The notes beneath the pieces are model-generated. The model saw nothing but the letters and a program-made list of their open reading frames with translations. It was not told the DNA's origin and ran no database searches. From contig NZ_KI911559.1 of the NCBI RefSeq assembly GCF_000515255.1, forward strand, positions 2,002,824 through 2,066,823: DNA of 64,000 bases, in the 5' to 3' direction. The position numbers and the translations under genes are program-made. This DNA is from Rhodovibrio salinarum DSM 9154 (GTDB lineage: Bacteria; Pseudomonadota; Alphaproteobacteria; Kiloniellales; Rhodovibrionaceae). Below, piece by piece: positions 45,014 to 57,486 of this stretch; position 1 is the first letter of the stretch; the number at the start of each line of letters is the position of its first letter.

Positions 45014-45296
45014 GATACCTCCAGGATGCCCGCCGGCTGCATGCGGTCAACTCAAGACTTCGATTTTTACGCGATGGTTCTAAGCGATATCGCGATCCCG
45101 GCGCTGGTGCGCATTTGGCTTAGAACGGATGGCTTGTCCGGGGAAGGTCACACGTTGCGTGCGCGACGAAGGCTTGCGTCCGGGGCCGCCAACGGCTAAC
45201 CCCGGCGCTGGCCGGACCGGAATCGTCCGCGCGCTACCCCGCGCACGGCGACCCGCCATCACATCAGCCACCATCGACATCTGGGTTGGAGGGGGC

Positions 45297-46322
45297 ATGC
45301 TTTCCTTCGGGTCTCGCGGCGGCGATCTCGCGATCGACCTGGGCACCGCCAACACGCTGGTCTTTGCCAAGGGCCGGGGGATTATCGTCAACGAACCCTC
45401 GGTCGTCGCCATCACCCAGCGTGGCGGTAAGACCCAGGTGCTCGCGGTCGGCGAGGACGCGCGCCAGATGCTCGGCAAGACGCCGGAGCAGATTCGCGCG
45501 ATCCGTCCAATCCGCAAGGGCGCGATCGGCGATTTCGAGGTCGCGCAGGCGATGATCGCTCACTTCATCGGCAAGGTTGCCAAGCGCCGCGGCTTCCGTC
45601 GACCACGCGTGGTGATCTCGACTCCCCAGGGCGCGACCCCGGTGGAACGCCGCGCGATCCGCGAGGCCGCGGAGGGGGCGGGCGCCGGCCATGTCTACCT
45701 GATTGAGGAGCCGATGGCCGCCGCGATCGGCGCCGACCTGCCGGTGACCAGCCCGCAGGGCTCGATGGTGGTCGACCTTGGTGGCGGCACGACCGAGGTT
45801 GCGGTGATCTCGCTGGGCGGGGTGGTGAATTCCGTCTCCGTCCCGGTCGGCGGCGACGACTTCGACGAAGCGGTCGGTGCCTACGTTCGCCGGCTGCACA
45901 ATGTGGCGATCGGCGAGGCGACGGCCGAGCGGATCAAGCGCGAGGTCGGCAGCGCGCTCGAGCCTGAGGGCGAAGGGCGTTCGATTCAGGTTTCCGGCCG
46001 GGATCTCGTGACCGGTGTGCCCAAGGCGGTGACCGTCACCGAGGGCGAGATTGCCCAGGCTTTGGCCGAGCCGGTGACGGCCGTGATCGAGGGGGTGAAA
46101 GACGCACTCGAGCGGACCGCGCCGGAACTCGCCGCGGATATCGTCGACGGCGGCCTGGTGATGACCGGCGGCGGCGCCTTGTTGAGCCGCTTGGACGAGG
46201 CGATCCGGAACGCGACCGGCCTCGCTGTCGTGGTCGCCGAGGACCCGCTTACCTGTGGCGTCCGCGGCGCCGGTCGCGCGCTCGACGAAATCAAGGCGAT
46301 GCAGAACGTCCTGCAGGATTAG
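45297..46322 (+). CDS. mreB: Actin-like rod-shape protein MreB, 341 aa
   Basis: MreB filaments guide side-wall peptidoglycan synthesis. Phosphate loop 1 is [18 protein letters not shown], the second is [18 protein letters not shown], and the connect segment and adenosine motif are [16 protein letters not shown] and [15 protein letters not shown]. Length is full. The start ATG 45297 follows GGAGGGGG. Unlike the usual mreBCD cluster, no mreC or mreD is next to it; it may be a second copy or a dispersed arrangement. Confidence 0.95.
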
Positions 46323-46357: not shown

Positions 46358-47713
46358 CTACAGGTCGGCTGCCTGAGCGGCCGGATGGTTGTGGCGGGCA
46401 AGCAGGTCCTGTTGGCGCGCGGCGACCGTATCGACGTCGAAACCGGCGACCATCTCGTTGAACAGGCGATGCCAGTTGACCCGGGCGTCCAGGCGCATGA
46501 ACAGTGCGCCCAGGCCGACGCTGGCGCGGTCCATGAACACGAACTCGCGCGGCATCTCGACCCCGCCGGCCTCCTTTAGCAGCTTGCGCACCTCCTCCAC
46601 CTTGCGCCGGCCGATCTCGACGTTGTTGGTCGCGTTCACCGACTGCGGGTTGTCGGTTAGCACGGGCCCGTAGATAAAGCGCGCCCAGTCGTTCAGCGCA
46701 TCGACCAAGTCGTTCGATAGGTTCTGGAAATTCCAGCAGCGGTAGGCGTAAGCGGCCTTGTCGCGGTCGTCGTCGCGGAGCGCCTCGTACAGCCGGATCA
46801 CCCCTTCCACGAAGTGCGCGGGGAAGACACGGATGCAGCCGTAGTCCAGCAGGTTGATGCTGCGATCCTCGCGGATCGTGTAGTTGCCGAAGTGCGGATC
46901 GCCGTGAATCACCGCGTAGTCGTAGAGCGGCTTGTACCAGAGGCGGAACATCTGGGTGGCGATCTCGTCGCGCACCTCCTGGGGATAGTCGGCTGCTTCC
47001 ATGATCGGCCGACCCGGCAACCACTCTGCCGTCAGCAGGCGGTTCGTCGACAGTTCCGAGATCGGCTCGGGGACATGCACGCCGGGCTCTTCGCTGAGCA
47101 TTTCGCGGTACATCGCGATCCGGCGGAATTCCAGCGAGTAGTCCAGCTCCTCGAAAATCCGCTCCTTCAGTTCCTCGACGATCCGCCCCGTGCGCACCGA
47201 GCCTTCGTAGCGCTCGAACATGGTGAGCAGCCAACCGGCTTGCTTCAGATCGGACTCCACCGTGTCCTGCATGCCGGGATACTGCAGCTTGCAAGCAACC
47301 TCCCGACCGTCGTGCATCTGCGCCCGGTGCACCTGGCCGAGCGATGCGGCGGCCTTGGGCTCCAATTCGAAGTCGGCGAACTGCTTGCGCCAGCCTTGGC
47401 CCAACTCGTGGGCCATCCGGCGCTTGACGAACGGCCGGCCCATCGGCGGCGCGTTGGATTGCAGCTCGGCCAGCTCACGGGCGTATTCGGGCGGCAGCAG
47501 GTCGGGCAGCGAGGAGATCAGCTGGGCGAACTTGACCAATGGGCCGCGCAAGGTGCCAAGCGCTTCCTTGAGCGCTTCGGCCTCGCGTGCCCGATCGCCG
47601 CCGAAGCCGGTGCGTTGACGCAACTGGTTGAACAGAACGCTGCCGGCGGTGGAGCCGATCTTCAGGTTGCGACGGGCGCCCCGCAGGGTCTCGTCAGAGG
47701 AAATGTCGCTCAT
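46358..47713 (-). CDS. ABC1/UbiB-like atypical kinase, 451 aa
   Basis: ABC1 proteins are ATPases or kinases that support ubiquinone synthesis. The Ala-rich loop is AAASLGQVHRAQM, the catalytic part HGDPHFGNYTI and the metal site LLDYGCIR. The N-terminal motif that is KxGQ in UbiB reads KFAQ here (GPLVKFAQLISSLPD), and DFG is replaced by DYG, so it is a divergent subgroup. No C-terminal membrane helices as in UbiB are seen. Its start overlaps the COQ10-like gene by four bases (ATGA), which points to joint use with that protein and with ubiTUV. Confidence 0.88.
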   Translation of the reverse strand: MSDISSDETLRGARRNLKIGSTAGSVLFNQLRQRTGFGGDRAREAEALKEALGTLRGPLVKFAQLISSLPDLLPPEYARELAELQSNAPPMGRPFVKRRMAHELGQGWRKQFADFELEPKAAASLGQVHRAQMHDGREVACKLQYPGMQDTVESDLKQAGWLLTMFERYEGSVRTGRIVEELKERIFEELDYSLEFRRIAMYREMLSEEPGVHVPEPISELSTNRLLTAEWLPGRPIMEAADYPQEVRDEIATQMFRLWYKPLYDYAVIHGDPHFGNYTIREDRSINLLDYGCIRVFPAHFVEGVIRLYEALRDDDRDKAAYAYRCWNFQNLSNDLVDALNDWARFIYGPVLTDNPQSVNATNNVEIGRRKVEEVRKLLKEAGGVEMPREFVFMDRASVGLGALFMRLDARVNWHRLFNEMVAGFDVDTVAARQQDLLARHNHPAAQAADL

Positions 47714-48192
47714 ATGGCGCCTTTGGCGGTGGTGGTGCGGCCCGTCGGACTGCGATACGTGCGCCCGCCCAGCTTGGATCGCGCGCGTACGACGAAGGCG
47801 TCCATCATCCGCTTCGAAACCGCATCGAACAGCTTACTGGCCAGCATGTTGAGCCGCCGGCCGCGGAAGGCAAAGGTAACGTGGAAATGCACATAGGTGC
47901 CGCCGTCGACCGGCGTGAAGGTCCATGTGCCCGCCAGGTTGGACAACGGCCCGTCGAGGTAGCGGAAGGCGATCTTGCGGTTTGCGCGATCCAGTTGGAC
48001 ACGGCTGATGAAGTGTTCCCGCAGGCCGCGCACACCGACCGCCAGCCGTGCGTCGAAGCCGTCCGCCCAGCGCTCGGTGATCTGACTCTCGACGCAGAAG
48101 GGCGCAAACTCCTCGTACTTGTCGACGTCGGCGACGAGGTCGAACAACGGGTCGGCGTCGTAGGGGAGCGTGCGCGCGGTATCGAATTCCAT
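47710..48192 (-). CDS. COQ10-like START domain protein, 160 aa
   Basis: Coenzyme Q-binding proteins of the COQ10 family carry ubiquinone in a hydrophobic cavity. The sequence LPYDADPLFDLVADVDKYEEF, then PFCVESQITERWADG and HFHVTFAFRGRRLNML match the family. RatA-like and polyketide-cyclase relatives share the fold, so the ligand is inferred mainly from its neighbours. GAGGAG nine bases before ATG 48192 decides the start over a longer frame. Overlap with the ABC1 gene is ATGA. Confidence 0.85.
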   Translation of the reverse strand: MEFDTARTLPYDADPLFDLVADVDKYEEFAPFCVESQITERWADGFDARLAVGVRGLREHFISRVQLDRANRKIAFRYLDGPLSNLAGTWTFTPVDGGTYVHFHVTFAFRGRRLNMLASKLFDAVSKRMMDAFVVRARSKLGGRTYRSPTGRTTTAKGAI

Positions 48193-48329
48193 GCCTGGCT
48201 CCTCGCGGGTGTGCCCGTTTGCCATATTCTTTGACTTTAAAAGAAATCGGCACGGTCCTCCCCATGCGCCATGCGCTGCATGGTCGCGGGGGACCGTGGT
48301 CGATTCTTCTGCGAGTCAAGATGGCTGTT

Positions 48330-48355
48330 CGGGGCCCGATCCGAAAGGGGCCCCG
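48330..48355 (-). terminator. Hairpin after ubiV
   Basis: CGGGGCCC (48330-48337) pairs with GGGGCCCCG (48347-48355). It lies 26 bases beyond the ubiV stop, in the gap before the COQ10-like gene, with no T-run. It could reduce read-through between the two gene groups. Confidence 0.5.
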
Positions 48356-48381
48356 GCAGACACACGCCGTGAGAGACGCGC

Positions 48382-49308
48382 TCAGGCTTCGTGCCAGGTA
48401 ACCCCTGGGGCGTCGTACAGATAGCCGTTGGCGAGTGGCACCTCGCCACAGAGTTCCTCGAGGGCATCGAGCGCCGCCGGGGTTTCCTCCCGTCCCTCCA
48501 GCAGGCCGCTGAACACCTGGGCGACCGCAACCATGTCGACATCCTGCGGCAGCAGGCGAAAAGCCTGCACACCGGCCTGGCGCAACGCGTCCAGCTCGCC
48601 CGCCAGGCATGCGTAGGCGCGGGAGAGCGTCTGCACGCCGTTAACCGTCAAGAACGGTTGATCGTCCAGCGTGTCGACCGGCAGGCCGTCTGGATCGGCG
48701 CCGCACGCGAATTGGCAGGTCGCCTTGTCCCGGCCATAGGCGCGGGCATGATAGCAACGCGCTGAGATCGCCAGTGGCCAGCGGCCAAACGCCTGCACCT
48801 CGATTGCCGGCGCCTTTGCGTCTGCGCCCTGCAGACCCGCCAGATGCAAGAGCGAGGCGCGCGGCAACTCCGGCGGCGGCAGCACACGGCTCACGCCTTG
48901 GGCGCCCAGGTGGCGCAGCGTCGCCTCGTTGTAGCTGTTCACGCCCGGCCCCGCGGACTCGACCGCGATGCCGTCGCGTTGCAGCAGGCCGAGGGCGGCC
49001 ATGTCGTTGACCTCGACTGGCAGGCCGTGGCCGGCTAGTTCGCGCACCAGCGTGGCGTCGCGATCATCCGCCACCAGCGCCGGCGTCGACATCATCACCC
49101 GCTTGCCCGCGCGTTGCAGGCGGTCGATGACTGCGTCCAGGTAGGGGCGATTGAACGGCCAGCGCTTGGGGCAGACCACTTCGCCCAGGGCGACGGTGTC
49201 GACCGGCGCCTCGTCGGCGATCCGGAAGTGGAAGTCGCGCCATGCTTCTCCCGGCCAGTGCAGCAGCAGCGGTCCGAGTGTCAGGTCCGAAGCCGGGCGT
49301 TGCGTCAT
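48382..49308 (-). CDS. ubiV: UbiV, oxygen-independent ubiquinone hydroxylation protein, 308 aa
   Basis: With UbiU it forms a [4Fe-4S] heterodimer that hydroxylates ubiquinone precursors without oxygen. The U32-peptidase-like barrel is present, and the cysteines fit UbiV: one in VALGEVVCPKRWPF and a C-x12-C-x3-C set in ARCYHARAYGRDKATCQFAC. ATG 49308 overlaps the ubiU stop (TGATG) and follows GGAAGGA, so I use it rather than the TTG three codons earlier. Last of ubiT-ubiU-ubiV. Confidence 0.95.
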   Translation of the reverse strand: MTQRPASDLTLGPLLLHWPGEAWRDFHFRIADEAPVDTVALGEVVCPKRWPFNRPYLDAVIDRLQRAGKRVMMSTPALVADDRDATLVRELAGHGLPVEVNDMAALGLLQRDGIAVESAGPGVNSYNEATLRHLGAQGVSRVLPPPELPRASLLHLAGLQGADAKAPAIEVQAFGRWPLAISARCYHARAYGRDKATCQFACGADPDGLPVDTLDDQPFLTVNGVQTLSRAYACLAGELDALRQAGVQAFRLLPQDVDMVAVAQVFSGLLEGREETPAALDALEELCGEVPLANGYLYDAPGVTWHEA

Positions 49309-50315
49309 CACTGCCAATCCTTCCGATAGGCGCCGGTGGAGCCGCGCGCGCCTTCCTCCAGGCCGGCCAGGCCGGCGGTTTCGGAGATTTCTCCGCGAAC
49401 CGCGGCGTCACGCAGCGCGCGCATGTTCCGGACCACCTGCGCGACGTAGGCGCGCCCGCGCTGGCGGCCTTCGATCTTCAAGGCCGAGACGCCAGCAGCG
49501 ACCAAGTCCTGCATCACGCTTGCCGCGTTCAGGCTGGTCGGTTCCTCGAAGATATGCGTCTCCGCCCCGCGTACCTTGAAGCGCCCCTTGCACAAGGTTG
49601 GGTATCCCGCCGCTTGGCCCTCGGCGAAGCGGTTGATCGTGAACGCACCCAACTGCGTGACCAGGCCGTCGGCGCGTTCCTCGTAGCGCACGTCGGAGGC
49701 GGGTGAGCAGACGCCCACGGTATTGGGCGACTTGCCGGTCGCATAGGACGACAGAAAGCAGCGCCCCTCCGCCATCGGGCATAGGCCGCCGAACACGAAC
49801 ACCTCGTATTCGACATGGGTCGCATCACCCATCGCCCGGATGTCGTCGACCGTCAGCACGCGCGGCAGGACCGCCCGGCGGATGCCGAAGTTGCGGCTGT
49901 AGTACTCCAACGCTTCCGCATGCGCGGCACTGGCCTGAACGCTCAGATGCAGACGCAGTTCCGGGTGGCGCTCGGCCGCAAGGGAGAGCACGCCGAGGTC
50001 GGACAGGATGACCGCATCGACCCCGATCCGCGCCGCATCATCCAGCGCCCGGGTCCAGGGCCCCAGGTCGCCCGCCCGCGCGAAGGTATTGATGGCGAGA
50101 TACAGCTTGGTTCCACGTGCTTGGGCATAGGCCCGTGCCTCGGCAAGCTCCTCGCGAGAGAAGTTCAAGCCGGGGAAGTTGCGGGCATTGGTTTCGTCGC
50201 GGAAGCCGACGTACACGGCATCCGCGCCGGCATCGACGGCAGCGCGCAGGGCCGCAGGCGTTCCGGCCGGGCAGACCAGTTCAGGCCCCGGCCGCTCAGC
50301 GGCGACGGCGGTCAT
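49308..50315 (-). CDS. ubiU: UbiU, oxygen-independent ubiquinone hydroxylation protein, 335 aa
   Basis: Partner of UbiV in anaerobic ubiquinone synthesis. The U32 start ELVCPAGTPAALRAAVDAGA is typical, and the iron-sulfur ligands appear as C-x6-C-x16-C (GGLCPMAEGRC, then NTVGVCSP) plus a later Cys in YPTLCKGRF. Length matches the family. The start overlaps the ubiT stop by four bases. U32 proteins include true proteases, but the cysteine pattern and the neighbours make UbiU very likely. Confidence 0.95.
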   Translation of the reverse strand: MTAVAAERPGPELVCPAGTPAALRAAVDAGADAVYVGFRDETNARNFPGLNFSREELAEARAYAQARGTKLYLAINTFARAGDLGPWTRALDDAARIGVDAVILSDLGVLSLAAERHPELRLHLSVQASAAHAEALEYYSRNFGIRRAVLPRVLTVDDIRAMGDATHVEYEVFVFGGLCPMAEGRCFLSSYATGKSPNTVGVCSPASDVRYEERADGLVTQLGAFTINRFAEGQAAGYPTLCKGRFKVRGAETHIFEEPTSLNAASVMQDLVAAGVSALKIEGRQRGRAYVAQVVRNMRALRDAAVRGEISETAGLAGLEEGARGSTGAYRKDWQ

Positions 50316-51013
50316 GTTGGAACCTCCACATCCCCTTGGGCGGATACGGTCGACGACGCTCGGCTGCTGCGCGGTTGTCGACGGCGTAGACGCTGCACTT
50401 CAGCGCGTAGCTGGGCGATCTCTTGCGCTTGAGTGTCCAGGCGGTTTTGCAGCGGCGCCCGGATCTCGGCTTTGAGTGAGTCCAGGCCATCGGCCATGCG
50501 ACGGTAGAGCCAAGCCGCGCCCCCGATGGCATCGGTGGCCGGACGCTGTAGCGGACCCGCGAGCGCGGCGAACTCCTGCCCGACATCCAGCTCCGCGCCG
50601 TCGAGCGCGTTCCGCAGGGCCACCAACACATCGCTGTTGCCGGTGACCTGAATCTCCCGGGCGAAGAACATCGCATCGCCATCGCCGCCGCCTTGTGCAC
50701 AGGCGACCAGCCGCTCCACCGGACCGGTGACGGTCGCTTCCGCCTCGGGTGCGGACTCGGCGTCAGTCCGGCTGAGGGTCACCTCGGCCCCGTCAGCGGT
50801 GAAGGTGATCAGCGCAGACCACGGCAGATCGGTGGCAACGAGCAGGAGCCGCGCCGTGCCAACGTCGGACAGGCGGTCGAGCACATCGGGGTGACTTCGA
50901 CTCAGCCGGTCGGCCAGACGCTGTAGCAAAGCCTGCAGCGGGGCCGGGGGCAAAGGACGCAACAGCGCCCCAATCGGCGTCAAAGGCGTCAGGCGGGTTG
51001 CGCCGGCGGTCAC
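50312..51013 (-). CDS. ubiT: UbiT, SCP2-domain lipid-binding protein of anaerobic ubiquinone synthesis, 233 aa
   Basis: UbiT binds isoprenoid intermediates through an SCP2 sterol-carrier fold (residues 55-130; SALITFTADGAEVTLSRTD, FFAREIQVTGNSDVLVALRN). The N-terminal IGALLRPLPPAPLQALLQRL and the AEIRAPLQNRLDTQAQEIAQ coiled tail are as in the family. Translation starts at GTG 51013 behind GGAGGGG. First gene of the trio, with an FNR-like site 66-79 bases upstream. Confidence 0.9.
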   Translation of the reverse strand: MTAGATRLTPLTPIGALLRPLPPAPLQALLQRLADRLSRSHPDVLDRLSDVGTARLLLVATDLPWSALITFTADGAEVTLSRTDAESAPEAEATVTGPVERLVACAQGGGDGDAMFFAREIQVTGNSDVLVALRNALDGAELDVGQEFAALAGPLQRPATDAIGGAAWLYRRMADGLDSLKAEIRAPLQNRLDTQAQEIAQLRAEVQRLRRRQPRSSRASSTVSAQGDVEVPT

Positions 51014-51078
51014 GGTAAACCCCTCCGCGGTGACGTTGGCTCAGACAGCCTTATTCAAGCGCACGTGCACGGTTCGAT

Positions 51079-51092
51079 ATGACCTGGATCAA
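51079..51092 (-). promoter_or_regulatory. FNR/Anr-like box upstream of ubiT
   Basis: On the minus strand the site reads TTGAT CCAG GTCAT: one perfect half and a second half keeping TCA of ATCAA. A weak AATAAG at 51055-51050 lies at roughly the distance expected for a -10 box in a class II FNR promoter. In E. coli the ubiTUV genes respond to FNR, which supports but does not prove the assignment. Confidence 0.45.
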
Positions 51093-51392
51093 TAGCGCTC
51101 CCCGCAGGTCCACCCAGATCAGCGATCTCTTCCAATTCAACCCGCGAAATCCTGGATACAACGGCCCAAGAGACCGGTTTGCGTGGCAGACCGGAGCTGG
51201 CAAAAAACGTTTCCGCAAACGCCCCATGTGCCGGGAGGTGTTTCACGGCTGTGTCGCTATGCACACACACCAATACGGGGGTGTGCGGAGAGGGTAATTC
51301 TTCCTTTTGACGCCGGGGGTTGGCTCTACCAATTTTCAGGGTGCGGTGATGGCGCAAGCCGCGGCAAACCTCGGGTCAGAAGGAACGGCGAA

Positions 51393-51554
51393 ATGCAGGG
51401 CGTGCAGGTGACAGACAACCGGTACAACGTGATCGACAAAGCGGTCGGCGACATGGCCGGCGGTACCGTGAAACTACGGCACATTGGTTATGCGCTGGTG
51501 GCGTTCTTGACGCCGCTCGCCATCGGTATGCTCGCGATGGGGTCCCTTGCCTAA
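51393..51554 (+). CDS. Small single-pass membrane protein, 53 aa
   Basis: A short gene with AAGGAA eight bases before ATG 51393. The N-terminal half is polar (VTDNRYNVIDKAVGDMAGG), and the C-terminal half is one hydrophobic helix (YALVAFLTPLAIGMLAMG). The strong terminator about 100 bases downstream supports a real transcript. It is divergent from ubiT and shares the 379-base control region. I do not recognise the family; a role connected with anaerobic quinone synthesis is only a guess from position. Confidence 0.55.
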   Translation: MQGVQVTDNRYNVIDKAVGDMAGGTVKLRHIGYALVAFLTPLAIGMLAMGSLA

Positions 51555-51652
51555 ACCAAGGCGCGTATATCGGGAGGCGTCCGTGGCCAGTGCGGACGCG
51601 CGATCTTCCCTCTACGCGATACCAGTATACGCAGAACCCTCCAGTAGCTCCG

Positions 51653-51688
51653 CCCCGCCGGTTCTTAGATCGGCGGGGTTCTTTTTTT
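51653..51688 (+). terminator. Rho-independent terminator after the 53-aa gene
   Basis: CCCCGCCG (51653-51660) pairs perfectly with CGGCGGGG (51671-51678) around a ten-base loop, followed by TTCTTTTTTT. It ends plus-strand transcription before the convergent lipoprotein operon. Confidence 0.93.
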
Positions 51689-51731
51689 ACCGCTTTTACC
51701 GCGCGCAAGGAACTGAAGGCCGCTGCCCCGT

Positions 51732-52259
51732 CTATTGCACCACGTAGGTGACGCCCTGCGTGGTGCAGCGGTAGGCGGGTTTGAGCTGTTGTCGGTCGAG
51801 CGGGACGCAATCCGGGTCCGAGGCCGGCACAGCTGCCTGCTGCACGTTGCGCATCGGTGCTGGCGGAGCGAAGTCCGGCAGCCAGAACCAGAAGCTGCCT
51901 GGTACGTCTGCGCCCGGGATCGGCACCTGTCGGGTCGGCTCGGCGACCGGCTGGGCCAACTGTCGAACGACCGGTCGCCGGCGCACCTCGCGGGGGGCGA
52001 CGCGTCGTGTGTCGGCGGCGCGGTCCAGGCTGCGCCCGGCCGCCGCGCCGGCCAGCGTGCCCAGCCCGGCGCCACCCGCGGTGGCAGCCAGCTGGCCGGT
52101 TCCCTGTCCGATCTGCGCGCCGGCGACGCCGCCAGCGGCACCGCCGAGAACGGCGCCGACCTGCTCACGCGGGCCGGCGCTGCAGGCCGCCAGCGTGGTC
52201 AGCGCAAGCGCGACGACGGCAAGGCGCGTAGATACGCCACGCCAGTGCAATGCGTTCAT
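51732..52259 (-). CDS. Lipoprotein with glycine-zipper segment, 175 aa
   Basis: A lipoprotein signal ends in the lipobox TLAAC (about Cys 25). Then follows a glycine-zipper region (VLGGAAGGVAGAQIGQGTGQ) that can insert in or lie on a membrane, as in Rick_17kDa/OmpA-like surface antigens. The C-terminal part has PDCVPLDRQQLKPAYRCTTQ with two Cys that could pair. GGGAGAG precedes ATG 52259. It is the last gene of the minus-strand lipoprotein operon, 46 bases after the previous gene. Confidence 0.75.
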   Translation of the reverse strand: MNALHWRGVSTRLAVVALALTTLAACSAGPREQVGAVLGGAAGGVAGAQIGQGTGQLAATAGGAGLGTLAGAAAGRSLDRAADTRRVAPREVRRRPVVRQLAQPVAEPTRQVPIPGADVPGSFWFWLPDFAPPAPMRNVQQAAVPASDPDCVPLDRQQLKPAYRCTTQGVTYVVQ

Positions 52260-52305
52260 GGTCGCTCTCCCGAAACCTTGCACGTGGGATCGATCAGCTT
52301 ACCGC

Positions 52306-53175
52306 CTAGCGCCAGCGTTGCGCCAGTGCCTGCATCGTCTCCAGCGCGACGTGCTGGGCGAGCGCCGAGACGCGTACGCTTTCGGTTTGAGCTTTCTTCT
52401 CGTAGCTCCCGGCGGTCGCTTGCCAACGGTGCTTTTGGGTATCCGTTGTATCGCGGCCGCGGGTCACCAGATTTGCGATGATCCCGCCATCGGCGATCCG
52501 TGTCACCTTGACCTGGAAGGCGGTGTCGAGGGGCGCATCTGTGTCGTCCAGCATGGTGATCTGAACCAGCAAATCGGCGAACGACTTGAGGGCTTCCGTC
52601 TCGACCAGTTGGGCGTCGTCCAACCGTCCCGGTCCGGTGCCCCGGCCGATATTGCTGTCCGTCACGCGCAGGATGACCGCGCGATCGACCAGGTCGGCGC
52701 CGCTGGCGAGCAGCGGGCGCGTGAAGCCGGCTTCGAATTCCGCCGCCGCGAGCGGGTCCAGGCGCCGAGCGCGCGCATCCTGTCCAGCGTTGCGTTCCAG
52801 CACGACCTTGCCGCTTTCCGCGCTGTCCAGTTGCAGCCGCTGGTCACCTCCATCCTGGTCATCCAGTTGGCCGGTGACACTGGCGGTGCGGTCGATACGC
52901 AGCCGCCCGAACGCGACCCATTGGCTGAGCCGGGCGGAGAACGGACGGTTCCAGTAGACCGCCAGCCGCGGCGACCCGGCATTGGCGTATCCACGGGCGA
53001 AATCGGCACGGATCGTCGCCGCTTGTGGGGCTGGGTCGGCCGTCGGGGCGCTGGCTTCCGGTCGATCGAGAACCGTCGGCAGGTTCGTCCGGTACTCCGC
53101 CGCGGTCAGCGGACCGCTCAGCAGAACGAATGGAAGCGTCGCGGCCAGCCAGACCGCCGCGCGGCGCGCGCTCAC
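52306..53175 (-). CDS. Secreted protein of the LpoB operon, 289 aa
   Basis: A signal peptide (AVWLAATLPFVLLSGPLTAA) leads to a soluble domain of mixed strands and helices. ADFARGYANAGSPRLAVYW and DRAVILRVTDSNIGRG suggest a conserved envelope domain like those encoded beside LpoB genes, but I cannot name it. GTG 53175 overlaps the previous stop (GTGA) behind GGAGGGG, so translation is coupled. No catalytic motif is visible. Confidence 0.7.
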   Translation of the reverse strand: MSARRAAVWLAATLPFVLLSGPLTAAEYRTNLPTVLDRPEASAPTADPAPQAATIRADFARGYANAGSPRLAVYWNRPFSARLSQWVAFGRLRIDRTASVTGQLDDQDGGDQRLQLDSAESGKVVLERNAGQDARARRLDPLAAAEFEAGFTRPLLASGADLVDRAVILRVTDSNIGRGTGPGRLDDAQLVETEALKSFADLLVQITMLDDTDAPLDTAFQVKVTRIADGGIIANLVTRGRDTTDTQKHRWQATAGSYEKKAQTESVRVSALAQHVALETMQALAQRWR

Positions 53176-53681
53176 GACCCCTCCCGCAGTTCGATGTAGT
53201 AGGTGTCGACCGCCTCCGTGCGCGCCGAGGTCGCGCTGTAGGTGCCGATCGTGTGCGGGGGCATCGGCAAACGCTGCCAAGCGGTCGGCGGCTCGACCTC
53301 GCCCTGGCCTTCGTCCAGGAAGTGCGTCCGACCCTCCACCTGCAGGGCATAATCGGTGCAGTTGACGATCCGGGCGCGCGCCTCGACTTGGCCGCCGTCC
53401 AGCCGTCGGGCATTGGTCGACTGCACCAGGACCTTGTTGCTGATCGCCTTGTCCGTGACGTTGACCGCGTTCAGCGGGATGTCCGCGATTGACCCCGGTG
53501 TTTGCGGCACCATCACGGGGCCGGTCTGCTCCGCTTCGGCGAGTTGTTGCTTGTAGGTTCGGAAGTTGCAGGCCGGTCCGGGGGTCACGGTGCTACTACA
53601 GGCGGCCAATACCCCGCCGGCGAGCAGAAGCCCGCCCAGGGCGGTCCAGCGGGAGGCGGAACGGCGGTTCGACGCGGTCAT
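53172..53681 (-). CDS. YcfL-like lipoprotein, 169 aa
   Basis: A lipobox LAAC follows a hydrophobic signal (LGGLLLAGGVLAAC). The second half, VLVQSTNARRLDGGQVEARA to VDTYYIELREG, resembles the DUF1425/YcfL beta-sandwich, which sits beside lpoB in E. coli. Function is unknown. I start at ATG 53681; the open frame upstream lies within the spacer and end of the TPR lipoprotein gene. Confidence 0.7.
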   Translation of the reverse strand: MTASNRRSASRWTALGGLLLAGGVLAACSSTVTPGPACNFRTYKQQLAEAEQTGPVMVPQTPGSIADIPLNAVNVTDKAISNKVLVQSTNARRLDGGQVEARARIVNCTDYALQVEGRTHFLDEGQGEVEPPTAWQRLPMPPHTIGTYSATSARTEAVDTYYIELREGS

Positions 53682-53725
53682 GGCGGACTGGCTCCATCGT
53701 TTAGGGGCGGCTTTGAAGGCACCGC

Positions 53726-55048
53726 CTAGTCGGCTGCGCTGCCAGGGGCAGCATCGGGGATGTCGGTCGCGCTGTGGGCGCGGGCCCAGGCAATCGCGCA
53801 CGGGCCGGCCTGTGTCACCGGGACGGTTGTGCGCGCTACTGTCTGGCCACCGTAGTCGGTAAAGCGGGCGGTTATCTGCCCTGGAATGTTCTCCGCCGTG
53901 ACGGCCGCGAGATGGACGCGGTCCGGCAGGTTGTCCCAGGTGCGCAGGTCCGCTTCCGGCCGCGTGGCCGCGGAAATGCCCTTGGCGATCAAGCCGGCCA
54001 TCATGACCGCGAGACCGGCCGCCATCGCATTGTTGTTATCGTCGTACGCACCGTAGGTCACCGCCGCCGCGCCGCCTTGAATCGCGACGTCGCCGACGGC
54101 ATCGCTGGTTCCCTTGAACTGTGCCTGCCCCTCCAGGATCCGGTCGACTTCCCGCCCGCCGCGGGTGGACGCCTGGAAGTAGACGTCCTCGGCCTGGGTG
54201 AGCTGGACCGTGCGCGGCGCTTCATCTGCATCTGCGTCGGATCCGACCAGTCCCATCTCCACGCGCCGGTCACGGAAACCGCCCGCGCGTTTGAAGGCGA
54301 GCGCCTCGTCATACCTGCCGACCGCGACCTTGCGCGGCGCCAAACCGGTTTCGCCAATCAGCAGCAGGTTCGCGTCCTCGCCTGGCGGATCGAGGTCATC
54401 ATTGTACTCCTGAGCTTCCTCGAACGCCTGGAACGCCAGACCCGGATCGTCCGCGCAGTGCGAGGCCCAGCCGGACAGGTAAGCGAGCAAGGCCACGTCC
54501 TGACTGTAGGTTTTGTTCTGGGCGAGGGTATCCTGCAACAGACCGCCCTTGAAGGACGCGCGCGCGTTCTCGTAGTCGCCCGCGCGCAGGTACAGCAGAC
54601 CCCGGTAATAATAGGCCATCGCGCGCTCGTAAGACTCGCCCTTGAACGCCTTATAGTTCTCCTTGATCCAGGTGCTGCGGGCTTCCTCGGCCTGCGCGCT
54701 GTCGGCATAGACCGTCTCGATCCCGAGCAGGGCCTTGTCAAACGACCGCTCGGCGAGGTCCCAGGCCCCGATCTGCATCGCCGCCAGGCCAGCGCGCATC
54801 TGGTTCAGCACGGCGTTGCGGGGGCCCTGCGTCAGCACCTTGGCGTAGAGGCGGTGCAGTTCCACCGGCTTGTCGGAGAGATAGAGCGCCATCTCGGCTT
54901 TCGGGACGTCGATCTCGCGCTCATGTTCCTGAACCGACGTACAACCGGTGAGTGCCGTGCCCATCAGCAGCGCCCCCGCCAAACGCGCCCGGAACGTCCG
55001 TCGCCGCCCTGTGTTGCCCATGCCGGCCCCCGCGTTGCCGCACGTCAT
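53726..55048 (-). CDS. TPR-containing lipoprotein, 440 aa
   Basis: A signal peptide with lipobox LTGC (about Cys 36) precedes several TPR-like helices (LAAMQIGAWDLAERSFDKAL, YYYRGLLYLRAGDYENARAS, ALLAYLSGWASHCADDPG). The C-terminal half contains a Gly/Ala hydrophobic helix pair (NNAMAAGLAVMMAGLIAKGI) and a beta part. It resembles the uncharacterised COG3014-type proteins found next to LpoB-like genes. ATG 55048 is used; ATG 55021 is an alternative. Confidence 0.75.
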   Translation of the reverse strand: MTCGNAGAGMGNTGRRRTFRARLAGALLMGTALTGCTSVQEHEREIDVPKAEMALYLSDKPVELHRLYAKVLTQGPRNAVLNQMRAGLAAMQIGAWDLAERSFDKALLGIETVYADSAQAEEARSTWIKENYKAFKGESYERAMAYYYRGLLYLRAGDYENARASFKGGLLQDTLAQNKTYSQDVALLAYLSGWASHCADDPGLAFQAFEEAQEYNDDLDPPGEDANLLLIGETGLAPRKVAVGRYDEALAFKRAGGFRDRRVEMGLVGSDADADEAPRTVQLTQAEDVYFQASTRGGREVDRILEGQAQFKGTSDAVGDVAIQGGAAAVTYGAYDDNNNAMAAGLAVMMAGLIAKGISAATRPEADLRTWDNLPDRVHLAAVTAENIPGQITARFTDYGGQTVARTTVPVTQAGPCAIAWARAHSATDIPDAAPGSAAD

Positions 55049-55092
55049 TTCCCCAAAGCCGTACCCGCCACACGGCCAGGGGGCATCTAGTC

Positions 55093-55725
55093 CTACCGAT
55101 AGATCACGTCGTCCTGAGCGGCCTTTGAGAACTCGTAAATGCCGCTCCAGACGATCGTCCCGTATTCCAGGTCTAGCATCTCGAAGGTGATCTGACTGTA
55201 GCGCTGGGCGGTGCCGGTGCTGCGGTCGCGGGCGTCGAGCGAGTTGATCGTGCCGACTAGCCGGTAGTCCGCCCCGGCCGTCGCCTGGGTCAGGCCGGTG
55301 GTGGCGCTGTCGACCACGCCGTCGCGCTTGAGCTCGCGTTCCTTTTCCACCGCATCCGCATACTGCCGGCCGACGAAAACCATTCGCCCGTTGGCCGCAC
55401 GCGACAGCCCGACGCGCAGGCGGTTGACGACCAACTGCTTGTCGATCCGCTGGCTGGAGCGGTTCTCGAAATAGGCATCGTCGATGATCACCCGCGGCGG
55501 TGTCCCGTCATCGTCGGTCAACTGCGGGTTGGTCAGCATGTCGCGCATCATCTGGTCGGTCATCGAGATGATGTCCTGCGATTCGATGCCGACCCCGCTG
55601 ACGGCTCCGCGCGTGTCCGGATCCTGGTACGTCGTGGGTGTTCCCGGCTTGTTTTCGATGCCGGTGGAACAGGCGGTAAGCGCCAGCCCAGCCAGCAGCG
55701 CGACTGCGGTCGTCGAAATACGCAT
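55093..55725 (-). CDS. LpoB-like penicillin-binding protein activator, 210 aa
   Basis: Outer-membrane lipoprotein. The lipobox is LALTACSTG. The conserved part PPRVIIDDAYFENRSSQRID, GLSRAANGRMVFVGRQYADA and FEMLDLEYGTIVWSGIYEFS is that of LpoB (PF13036), which in E. coli activates the bifunctional PBP1b. Whether it does so here is inference, because alphaproteobacterial PBPs differ. ATG 55725 follows GAGGG; the longer frame would begin with TTG 55740. First gene of the operon. Confidence 0.85.
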   Translation of the reverse strand: MRISTTAVALLAGLALTACSTGIENKPGTPTTYQDPDTRGAVSGVGIESQDIISMTDQMMRDMLTNPQLTDDDGTPPRVIIDDAYFENRSSQRIDKQLVVNRLRVGLSRAANGRMVFVGRQYADAVEKERELKRDGVVDSATTGLTQATAGADYRLVGTINSLDARDRSTGTAQRYSQITFEMLDLEYGTIVWSGIYEFSKAAQDDVIYR

Positions 55726-55882
55726 GAAGCCCTCGCTCAATCACTACAACCGGGCCGCAGGGCGCAGCTGTACCTGCGCCAAGGCCACGCCCGTGCATAA
55801 GGTCGCCCCGTCGGTTCGTGCATTAGAGCCGGCACAGGATATGTGACGCAATGTGCAATTAAGGGGCACGAGATTTGGCAAA

Positions 55883-55912
55883 GGACCCGCGACGGTCCCC
55901 CGTCGCGGGTCC
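55883..55912 (-). terminator. Terminator after the DUF4399 gene
   Basis: A perfect 13-base stem, GGACCCGCGACGG (55883-55895) with CCGTCGCGGGTCC (55900-55912), surrounds a four-base loop. On the minus strand a short TTT follows. Confidence 0.75.
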
Positions 55913-55944
55913 AGAACGCATCTGAATTAGAGCTGTGTGACCGC

Positions 55945-56376
55945 TTACTCGACCACGGTAATCGTCACGGTTTCGGAGGTGATCGGCGGATCGTGCGGGA
56001 GATGCTTGGCGTCGCCCATCAGGAGCTGCAGCGTGTGCTCGCCCGGTTCCAGCTCGATGGTGGTCTGGGTCTGCCCGCCGCCGAAATGGATGTGGTGGTC
56101 GTCGGCCGGGATCGGCGCGTTCAGGTCCGGCAGGTCGGTGTCGACCAGCAGGTGATGGTGGCCGGTCTTCTCATGCTCAACGCCGGAGGGCGCGACGCCG
56201 ATGTTATTGGCGCCAAAGCGCACGGTCACCGGGCTGGTGACCCGCTCGCCCTCGTTCGGCGTGATAATGTAGACGTTTGCGTCCTCGGGAGCGGGCGTAC
56301 GTTCCATCTGCGCGCTTGCGACGAGCGGCAGGCTGACGACCGCGGCAGCGGCCAAGGCTGTGATCGTCTTCGTCAT
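55945..56376 (-). CDS. Secreted DUF4399 protein, 143 aa
   Basis: A signal peptide (residues 1-22) is followed by a small beta-sandwich with TGHHHLLVDTDLPDLNAPIP and DDHHIHFGGGQTQ, the His-rich DUF4399 pattern, and GEHTLQLLMGDAKHLPHDPP. The many histidines suggest metal binding in the periplasm, which has not been shown. It is a single gene with its own terminator. Confidence 0.88.
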   Translation of the reverse strand: MTKTITALAAAAVVSLPLVASAQMERTPAPEDANVYIITPNEGERVTSPVTVRFGANNIGVAPSGVEHEKTGHHHLLVDTDLPDLNAPIPADDHHIHFGGGQTQTTIELEPGEHTLQLLMGDAKHLPHDPPITSETVTITVVE

Positions 56377-56546
56377 GGCACATTTCTCCCCGTGTCTGTG
56401 GTCGCTGTTGGCACTTGTTGCTCAGCGACACCGGACAGGTATCACGCCCGCGCCGACGGTCCAGAGCGACGCCGTCACATTTGCGTGGCCGTCGCAGACG
56501 CATTATTCCCGGTCGAACGCGAACGGCCGGAGAGGAACCGGAACAG

Positions 56547-56939
56547 ATGAGTTGGGGTACCGCGCTTGTGGTGGCGTTGGGCAGCGCGCTGGGCGGCGTT
56601 GGCCGGGTCTGGAGCACCGTTTTGGTCGAGCGCCTGGCCGGGGACGGATTGCCCTGGGGGACCTTCGCCGTGAACGTACTCGGCTCGTTACTGATCGGCC
56701 TGGTCGCCAGCCTGAGCGTGCCCGAGGGGCGTTGGATGGCGCACCCGCTCACCAAGCAGTTCTTCCTGCTCGGCCTGTTCGGCGGCTTCACCACCTTCAG
56801 CTCGTTCTCGCTGCAAACGGTGAACCTGCTGCGCGACGGCGCGGTCGTGAAAGCGGCGGCCTACGTCGGTGCCTCGGCCGTGCTCTGCTTGCTCGCCGCC
56901 TGGCTCGGCCACTTGCTGGCGGTCGCTGCGCAGCGCTAG
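56547..56939 (+). CDS. crcB: Fluoride exporter CrcB (Fluc), 130 aa
   Basis: Small four-helix protein that as a dual-topology dimer lets fluoride leave the cell. GSALGGVGRVWSTVL, FAVNVLGSLLIGLVA and FGGFTTFSSFSLQTVNL are the conserved helices, including the Phe-box and Asn of the pore. AGAGGAA precedes ATG 56547. No fluoride riboswitch could be recognised upstream. Confidence 0.95.
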   Translation: MSWGTALVVALGSALGGVGRVWSTVLVERLAGDGLPWGTFAVNVLGSLLIGLVASLSVPEGRWMAHPLTKQFFLLGLFGGFTTFSSFSLQTVNLLRDGAVVKAAAYVGASAVLCLLAAWLGHLLAVAAQR

Positions 56940-57045
56940 GAAAGTTGATGCGCCTTGTCACGGCGCTGGACGATGCCAACCTGTCGGACAGTTCCGCCGA
57001 CCCAACACGGCAATCCGCAGACCAATGGGAGCGCCTGAAGACACC

Positions 57046-57486
57046 ATGCAATATCTGCACACGATGGTTCGGATCAGCGACATCGAGCAGTCGCTGGACT
57101 TCTACTGCAACAAGCTCGGCCTGGTGGAGATGAGCCGGACGGACCTGGAAAAGGCCGAGGCGACCCTGATCTTCCTGGCCGCGCCGGAGGATGTCGAGCG
57201 CGCCAAGCAGGACAAGGCGCCGATGCTGGAGCTAACCTACAACTGGCAGCCGGAGGAGTATTCCGGCGGCCGGAACTTCGGCCATCTCGCCTACCGCGTC
57301 GACGATATCTACGAAACCTGCCAGCGCCTGATGGACGCCGGCGTGACCATCAACCGGCCGCCGCGCGATGGCCGCATGGCTTTCGTGAAGTCGCCGGACG
57401 GCATCTCGATCGAGCTGCTGCAGAAGGGGGATTCCCAAGAGCCGAAGGAACCCTGGGCATCGATGGAAAACACCGGCAGCTGGTAA
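57046..57486 (+). CDS. gloA: Glyoxalase I-type lactoylglutathione lyase, 146 aa
   Basis: Converts the methylglyoxal-glutathione adduct to lactoylglutathione. The metal ligands are His 5 (YLHTMVRI), Glu in MLELTYNW, His in NFGHLAYRVDD and Glu in ISIELLQKG. Length and order match bacterial GloA. ATG 57046 has little ribosome-site support but is the family start. It lies just before a GFA-family gene; both could serve aldehyde removal with glutathione. Confidence 0.94.
   Translation: MQYLHTMVRISDIEQSLDFYCNKLGLVEMSRTDLEKAEATLIFLAAPEDVERAKQDKAPMLELTYNWQPEEYSGGRNFGHLAYRVDDIYETCQRLMDAGVTINRPPRDGRMAFVKSPDGISIELLQKGDSQEPKEPWASMENTGSW

Follow-up and report, generated by a model that had tools for sequence, protein, structure and literature searches.

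A COQ10-type gene and an ABC1/COQ8-type gene that follow ubiT, ubiU, and ubiV in the salt-loving phototroph Rhodovibrio salinarum DSM 9154 are additional paralogues conserved at the genus level, in an arrangement kept by selection. These genes lie in a stretch of 64,000 nucleotides (contig NZ_KI911559.1, positions 2,002,824 to 2,066,823), the whole of which is called the window here and supplies the coordinates below. An earlier note on this DNA had proposed that the COQ10-ABC1 pair may be dedicated to the anaerobic branch of ubiquinone synthesis; our survey indicated that this pathway does not generally include the pair. By analogy, we lean, if only slightly, toward an accessory role in ubiquinone mobilization and delivery, perhaps for low-oxygen or phototrophic growth. 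The five genes and their quinone-related identities, as given in the earlier note, were borne out over 46358-51013 by NCBIfam and Pfam scores, and all five lie on the minus strand:

46358 to 47713, minus strand: ABC1/COQ8-type kinase-like protein, 451 amino acids, motif KFAQ, extra paralogue (Pfam PF03109, 196 bits, above the gathering score; COQ8-like fold; tree)
47710 to 48192, minus strand: COQ10/RatA-type START-domain protein, 160 amino acids, extra paralogue (Pfam PF03364, Polyketide_cyc, 90.6 bits)
48193 to 48381, no strand: gap of 189 bases between ubiV and the COQ10 gene (alignment with Rhodovibrio sodomensis)
48382 to 49317, minus strand: ubiV (U32 family), overlapping ubiU by 10 bases (NCBIfam NF047965, 311 bits; cut-off, 275)
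49308 to 50315, minus strand: ubiU (U32 family), overlapping ubiT by 4 bases (NCBIfam NF047963, 489 bits; cut-off, 440)
50312 to 51013, minus strand: ubiT (SCP2 protein, anaerobic ubiquinone factor), GTG start (NCBIfam NF047962, 51.2 bits; cut-off, 46.9)
51079 to 51092, minus strand: FNR-like site TTGATCCAGGTCAT upstream of ubiT, two mismatches to TTGAT-N4-ATCAA

The ubiT-ubiU-ubiV genes form an ordinary anaerobic ubiquinone operon. The four conserved cysteines of each U32 protein, the Fe-S ligands, are present at residues 179, 186, 203, and 242 of UbiU and at residues 49, 188, 201, and 205 of UbiV, with the spacing of the Escherichia coli proteins. In its compact gene order, with all three proteins above their cut-offs and a candidate FNR-like site upstream of ubiT, the locus resembles the O2-independent ubiTUV locus under FNR control (PMC6747719; PMC11707229). 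It differs in being followed by paralogues of COQ10 and ABC1, which occur as a pair at 0 of the 64 other loci examined. The coupling of the COQ10 and ABC1 genes claimed in the earlier note was seen as a 4-base overlap. Their placement directly after ubiV held insofar as they are the next genes downstream on the same strand, but 189 bases separate them from the ubiV stop (48382). The COQ10 frame opens at 48225, but R. sodomensis lacks that ATG, so the gene likely starts at the ATG at 48192, which is kept in that species and preceded by GAGGAGCC.

The five genes occur in identical order in R. sodomensis, with 92-93% identity between the window ABC1 protein and that of R. sodomensis DSM 9895. Relative to the flank from 58365 onward, the block 46358-57458 is inverted in R. 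sodomensis (locus L095, 1-11374), and one breakpoint lies immediately behind the ABC1 gene. Despite this inversion, both of the Rhodovibrio species examined have the pair, whose members belong to quinone-handling families, adjacent to ubiTUV. The ratio of nonsynonymous to synonymous substitution rates (dN/dS) between the two species was 0.11-0.21 for the ubi genes, and the values of 0.08 for ABC1 and 0.13 for COQ10 indicate that both members of the pair are under purifying selection.

The window ABC1 protein is distinct from UbiB. It scored 172.9 bits against the UbiB family TIGR01982 (cut-off, 487.55), whereas the genome's own UbiB (L001), encoded elsewhere next to ubiE, scored 513.3 bits and carries a KLGQ motif and a hydrophobic C-terminus. 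Both proteins share the ABC1 domain and its kinase-like residues. The window protein differs by having KFAQ (residues 61-64) in place of KxGQ and by missing the C-terminal membrane helix: the top 19-residue hydropathy near its C-terminus was 0.95, compared with 2.14 in the own UbiB, and no C-terminal transmembrane stretch was found. Both features had been reported in the earlier note, which had also treated KFAQ as a divergence. The motif is indeed present, but KxAQ is usual in this family, occurring in 60 of 62 subfamily rows (exceptions, L006 and L028; the L095 motif was read from a separate five-sequence alignment), while KxGQ occurs in 11 of 11 UbiB rows and KVGQ in three more distant relatives. 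Together with the absence of the C-terminal helix, KxAQ characterizes a wide alphaproteobacterial ABC1 family. We therefore rejected KFAQ as the mark of a special anaerobic ABC1 protein, as well as the idea that the window protein substitutes for a missing UbiB, since UbiB is present. The kinase-like residues K61, Q64, A121-S124, K142, D272, N277, and D290 were invariant in five aligned sequences. L099, with a broken reading frame, was excluded from the structure alignment. The AlphaFold model of the window protein, of moderate confidence (mean predicted local distance difference test score, 66.9; mostly below 50 in the N-terminal 90 residues), matched COQ8A structures best, with a template modeling score by target length of up to 0.82. 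We describe it as a soluble protein of a COQ8-like KxAQ family, with putative ATPase activity.

In both sequence and predicted fold, the best matches of the window ABC1 protein were COQ8A/COQ8B (ADCK3/ADCK4) and mycobacterial MABP-1 (Rv3197, MSMEG_1954), from which it differs in its overall identity of about 25%, in KxAQ for KxGQ, and in that mitochondrial targeting is not expected. It scored 150 bits against COQ8B and 149 against MSMEG_1954. The corresponding scores were 115 (COQ8B) and 139 (best mycobacterial) for another ABC1 protein of the genome, L004, and 72 (COQ8B), 104 (MSMEG_1954), and 107 (best mycobacterial) for the own UbiB. By these scores, the KxAQ subfamily is closer to COQ8 than UbiB is, yet no closer to COQ8 than to the mycobacterial type.

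Four ABC1 genes were found in the genome, namely UbiB, the window gene, L002 (72% identical to the window protein), and L004 (52%); L002 and L004, with 176 and 160 bits, also fall below the UbiB cut-off. A tree of 77 rows was built from loci of 29 order genomes, 28 class genomes, and 20 others, a subset of the genomes searched, leaving out L142 (the same gene as L249) and matches below 90 bits. L004 grouped with two other genomes of the same family (100/100) and is thus, by its placement, the inherited copy. The window, R. sodomensis, and L002 proteins formed a separate deep clade outside that of the order, on a stem of 1.16 changes per column, which indicates that the window ABC1 protein comes from an additional lineage that would have been duplicated within or before Rhodovibrio. 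The source of this lineage was not found in plasmid, class, or phylum searches. Three plasmid records had ABC1 (best, 51%) and 27 had COQ10 (all below 60%), and the closest ABC1 relative in the class sample reached 57%. At an E value of 1e-100 or below, ABC1 was matched in 45 of the 397 genomes of a phylum sample, among which the number from outside the class is not shown; all 45 were of the same class, and the best match outside the own genome was 55%. The closest paralogue, L002 (G000:C1:3223303-3224658), adjoins a c-type cytochrome-like gene, as judged by eye. Its membership in the photosynthesis cluster gained no support: it lies about 37 kb from pufLM, and no photosynthesis gene was recognized among the genes called beside it.

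For the COQ10 protein, the best Protein Data Bank match was 1t17 (E value, 2e-18, over most of the length), the Caulobacter COQ10 orthologue CC1736. The START domain of CC1736 binds coenzyme Q (CoQ) (PMC11541779). The window protein shares this START-type family with Caulobacter COQ10/RatA and differs from it as a divergent extra paralogue. Against the curated RatA family NF007999 (cut-off, 258), it scored only 75.9 bits, but the inherited COQ10 copy also failed with 93.2 bits, so this cut-off does not discriminate here. The inherited copy (L194), at genome position 2724870, is 39% identical to the window copy, and a third, remote member lies at 1863990 (30% identical). In a tree that drew on 29 order genomes for which loci were available (out of 57 besides the own genome), L194 grouped with two genomes of the same family (100/92), and the window and R. 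sodomensis copies were set apart (100/100). We regard the window COQ10 protein as an extra paralogue, with putative ubiquinone binding.

To place the pair in a wider context, its occurrence was compared with that of UbiU. In the order, every one of the 58 genomes, the own genome among them, had the ABC1 subfamily and a COQ10-type match, while UbiU exceeded its cut-off in 27 of 58. In the class, UbiU did so in 42 of 387 genomes, and ABC1 was found at an E value of 1e-60 or below in 240 of the same 387. The ABC1 family was present in 29 of 42 genomes with UbiU and in 211 of 345 without it (Fisher P = 0.40); counting two genomes with broken UbiU pieces (G256 and G301) as having UbiU gave 31 of 44 and 209 of 343 (P = 0.25). 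Across the class, then, the ABC1 family showed no link to UbiU. At the same E value, there were three ABC1 copies in the own genome, two in G183, and a single copy in the remaining 238 genomes, and one order genome with 10% contamination (G017) had two full-length family matches. Besides the own genome, the order and class samples contained 64 genomes in which UbiU exceeded the cut-off, and the ubiUV neighborhood of each was inspected. These stretches measured at most 19 kb and, because some were cut off where a contig ended, as little as 4.4 kb; absences apply to the DNA covered. UbiT was not found in two of these loci (L158 and L167). COQ10 was found in 0 of 64 and ABC1 in 1 of 64 (L142, approximately 5 kb away), a proximity treated as chance; this ABC1 gene is the sole strong match in its genome. 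Conversely, among 84 ABC1 stretches from 76 different places (one being the UbiB locus), most extending about 1.5 kb per side, COQ10 was present only in that of R. sodomensis. In a UbiUV tree made by a quick method with Shimodaira-Hasegawa-like approximate likelihood ratio test (SH-aLRT) support only, from which one of the 64 other loci was dropped for having no UbiV frame of 200 residues, Rhodovibrio grouped with three genomes of the same order (L149, L182, and L187; SH-aLRT, 99). These sister loci lack the pair, and its arrival together with ubiUV was therefore rejected. The distribution of the ABC1 family is independent of UbiU, a COQ10-type match is present in every order genome examined, and UbiB is present, so a general dedication to the anaerobic branch is not supported. 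The earlier note had named equal occurrence of the pair in genomes lacking ubiTUV, with no quinone effect, as what would refute its idea. Such occurrence was borne out for the families, but the two genes were found together only in Rhodovibrio, where they could still be dedicated to this branch.

Candidate regulatory sequences were found on both sides of the ubi genes. The FNR-like site TTGATCCAGGTCAT lies within a 17-base block, CTATTGATCCAGGTCAT, that is identical in R. sodomensis, whereas the surrounding DNA has 43% identity. The pattern TTGATNNNNRTCAW had a single match in the window, with 0.14 expected, although this pattern was composed after the site had been seen. Candidate FNR sites occur upstream of ubiU or ubiT in 1362 of 1566 ubiTUV triplets (PMC11707229), and the E. 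coli ubiTUV genes are controlled by FNR (PMC10470549). The operon is probably under an FNR-type regulator. In the gap between ubiV and the COQ10 gene, which is 57% identical to that of R. sodomensis, a perfect palindrome, CCATGCNNNGCATGG, occupies 48269-48283 and recurs in R. sodomensis (L095 9435-9449). It occurs at a single place in the 4.18-Mb, single-contig genome, and a control, the pattern read backwards, occurs once per strand; its single copy matches the chance expectation, and conservation in R. sodomensis is its sole support as a possible operator. With no second exact copy in the genome, it was rejected as the mark of a regulon; two loci from other genomes, L141 and L143, also contain it, presumably by chance. 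Promoter-like and terminator-like scans gave chance levels only.

Our preferred explanation is that the pair serves in mobilizing and delivering ubiquinone. At the expense of ATP, the ABC1 protein would detach ubiquinone or its late precursors from the membrane; the COQ10 protein would carry ubiquinone to its users. Such an accessory would be most important for the production and use of ubiquinone at low oxygen, as during the formation of photosynthetic membranes, and would be neither a core step of O2-independent hydroxylation nor a UbiB replacement. The genome encodes reaction-center L and M proteins and two O2-dependent Ubi hydroxylases above their family cut-off. The proposed role is drawn by analogy with Coq10, a CoQ chaperone with relatives that bind CoQ as well as late quinone intermediates (PMC11541779), with the yeast UbiB-family proteins Cqd1 and Cqd2, which alter CoQ distribution (PMC8346625), and with chloroplast PGR6/ABC1K1, which is linked to plastoquinone homeostasis (PMC6586890). 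Cqd1/Cqd2 and ABC1K1 are extra UbiB-family members tied to quinone distribution rather than synthesis; they belong to eukaryotic organelles and are likened to the window ABC1 protein in function only. No published account of a COQ10-ABC1 pair beside ubiTUV was found in the excerpts of literature on ubiTUV, UbiUV and Coq10, and Rhodovibrio ubiquinone. Several points weigh against the preferred explanation. The adjacency was seen in one genus and two species and could reflect chance placement followed by inheritance; COQ10 was found in 0 of 83 other ABC1 stretches (75 places), so the two families are not generally paired; and the stretch around L002 contains no COQ10 and is remote from ubiTUV. 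The 189-base gap and the conserved palindrome within it leave room for separate transcription of the pair, whose cotranscription with ubiTUV is putative. The substrate of UbiB-family proteins is unsettled (PMC10470549), and the function assigned here is read from sequence and analogy.

Some of these points also favor a chance neighborhood, in which the paralogues arrived or were duplicated here and would serve general ubiquinone or lipid handling at all oxygen levels, their position being meaningless. The restriction of the pair to one genus, its own intergenic region with the palindrome, the disagreement between the UbiUV and ABC1 trees, and the location of the sister paralogue L002 elsewhere are consistent with this, but a gene order that survived an inversion ending right after ABC1, and the known ubiquinone link of both families, place it on the unlikely side. 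A more specific form of the delivery role, a COQ8-like/COQ10-like module moving ubiquinone from the site of anaerobic synthesis into photosynthetic membranes, for which another COQ10 copy and a distinct ABC1 lineage would have been recruited to the ubiTUV locus in Rhodovibrio, is speculative and rather doubtful. In line with the earlier note, the two proteins might instead be dedicated to O2-independent synthesis of ubiquinone, acting with UbiTUV as a lipid carrier and a UbiB-like ATPase, a role that their position as the next genes downstream on the same strand, their retention together in two species despite the inversion, and the FNR-like site upstream of ubiT would suggest. We consider this distinctly improbable given the 189-base gap, the fact that the ABC1 family and UbiU do not significantly co-occur across the 387 class genomes, the absence of the pair from each of the 64 other ubiUV loci, and a true UbiB in the genome; in E. 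coli, UbiB is required for anaerobic ubiquinone too and serves both pathways (PMC6747719). Rhodovibrio presumably has both menaquinone and ubiquinone, and the selectivity of START and ABC1 proteins is unproven, so that menaquinone could be handled instead; this reading has no support from the sequence, is opposed by the ubiquinone-making neighbors and by the CoQ and late-intermediate binding of COQ10 relatives (PMC11541779), and is scarcely probable at all.

Outside the five genes, an MreB gene (window 45129-46322) faces ABC1, and about 60 residues precede the MreB domain in its called frame, so that its start may be misplaced. Upstream of ubiT, a run of lipoprotein-like genes (window 51732-55740), kept in R. 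sodomensis, encodes a protein of the LpoB family (PF13036) and has a weak tetratricopeptide repeat match.

How ubiquinone travels after its synthesis is an unsettled question, and what UbiB/COQ8 proteins do is debated. Our findings do not extend to a rule on anaerobic ubiquinone synthesis; a phototroph with overlapping COQ10-type and COQ8-type genes beside the oxygen-independent pathway would make a simple genetic test possible. The alphaproteobacterial KxAQ ABC1 family itself (e.g., L004 and L206-L233) is class-wide and nearly always single-copy, and its two tested members outscore UbiB against mitochondrial COQ8. This family may bear on the origin of COQ8.

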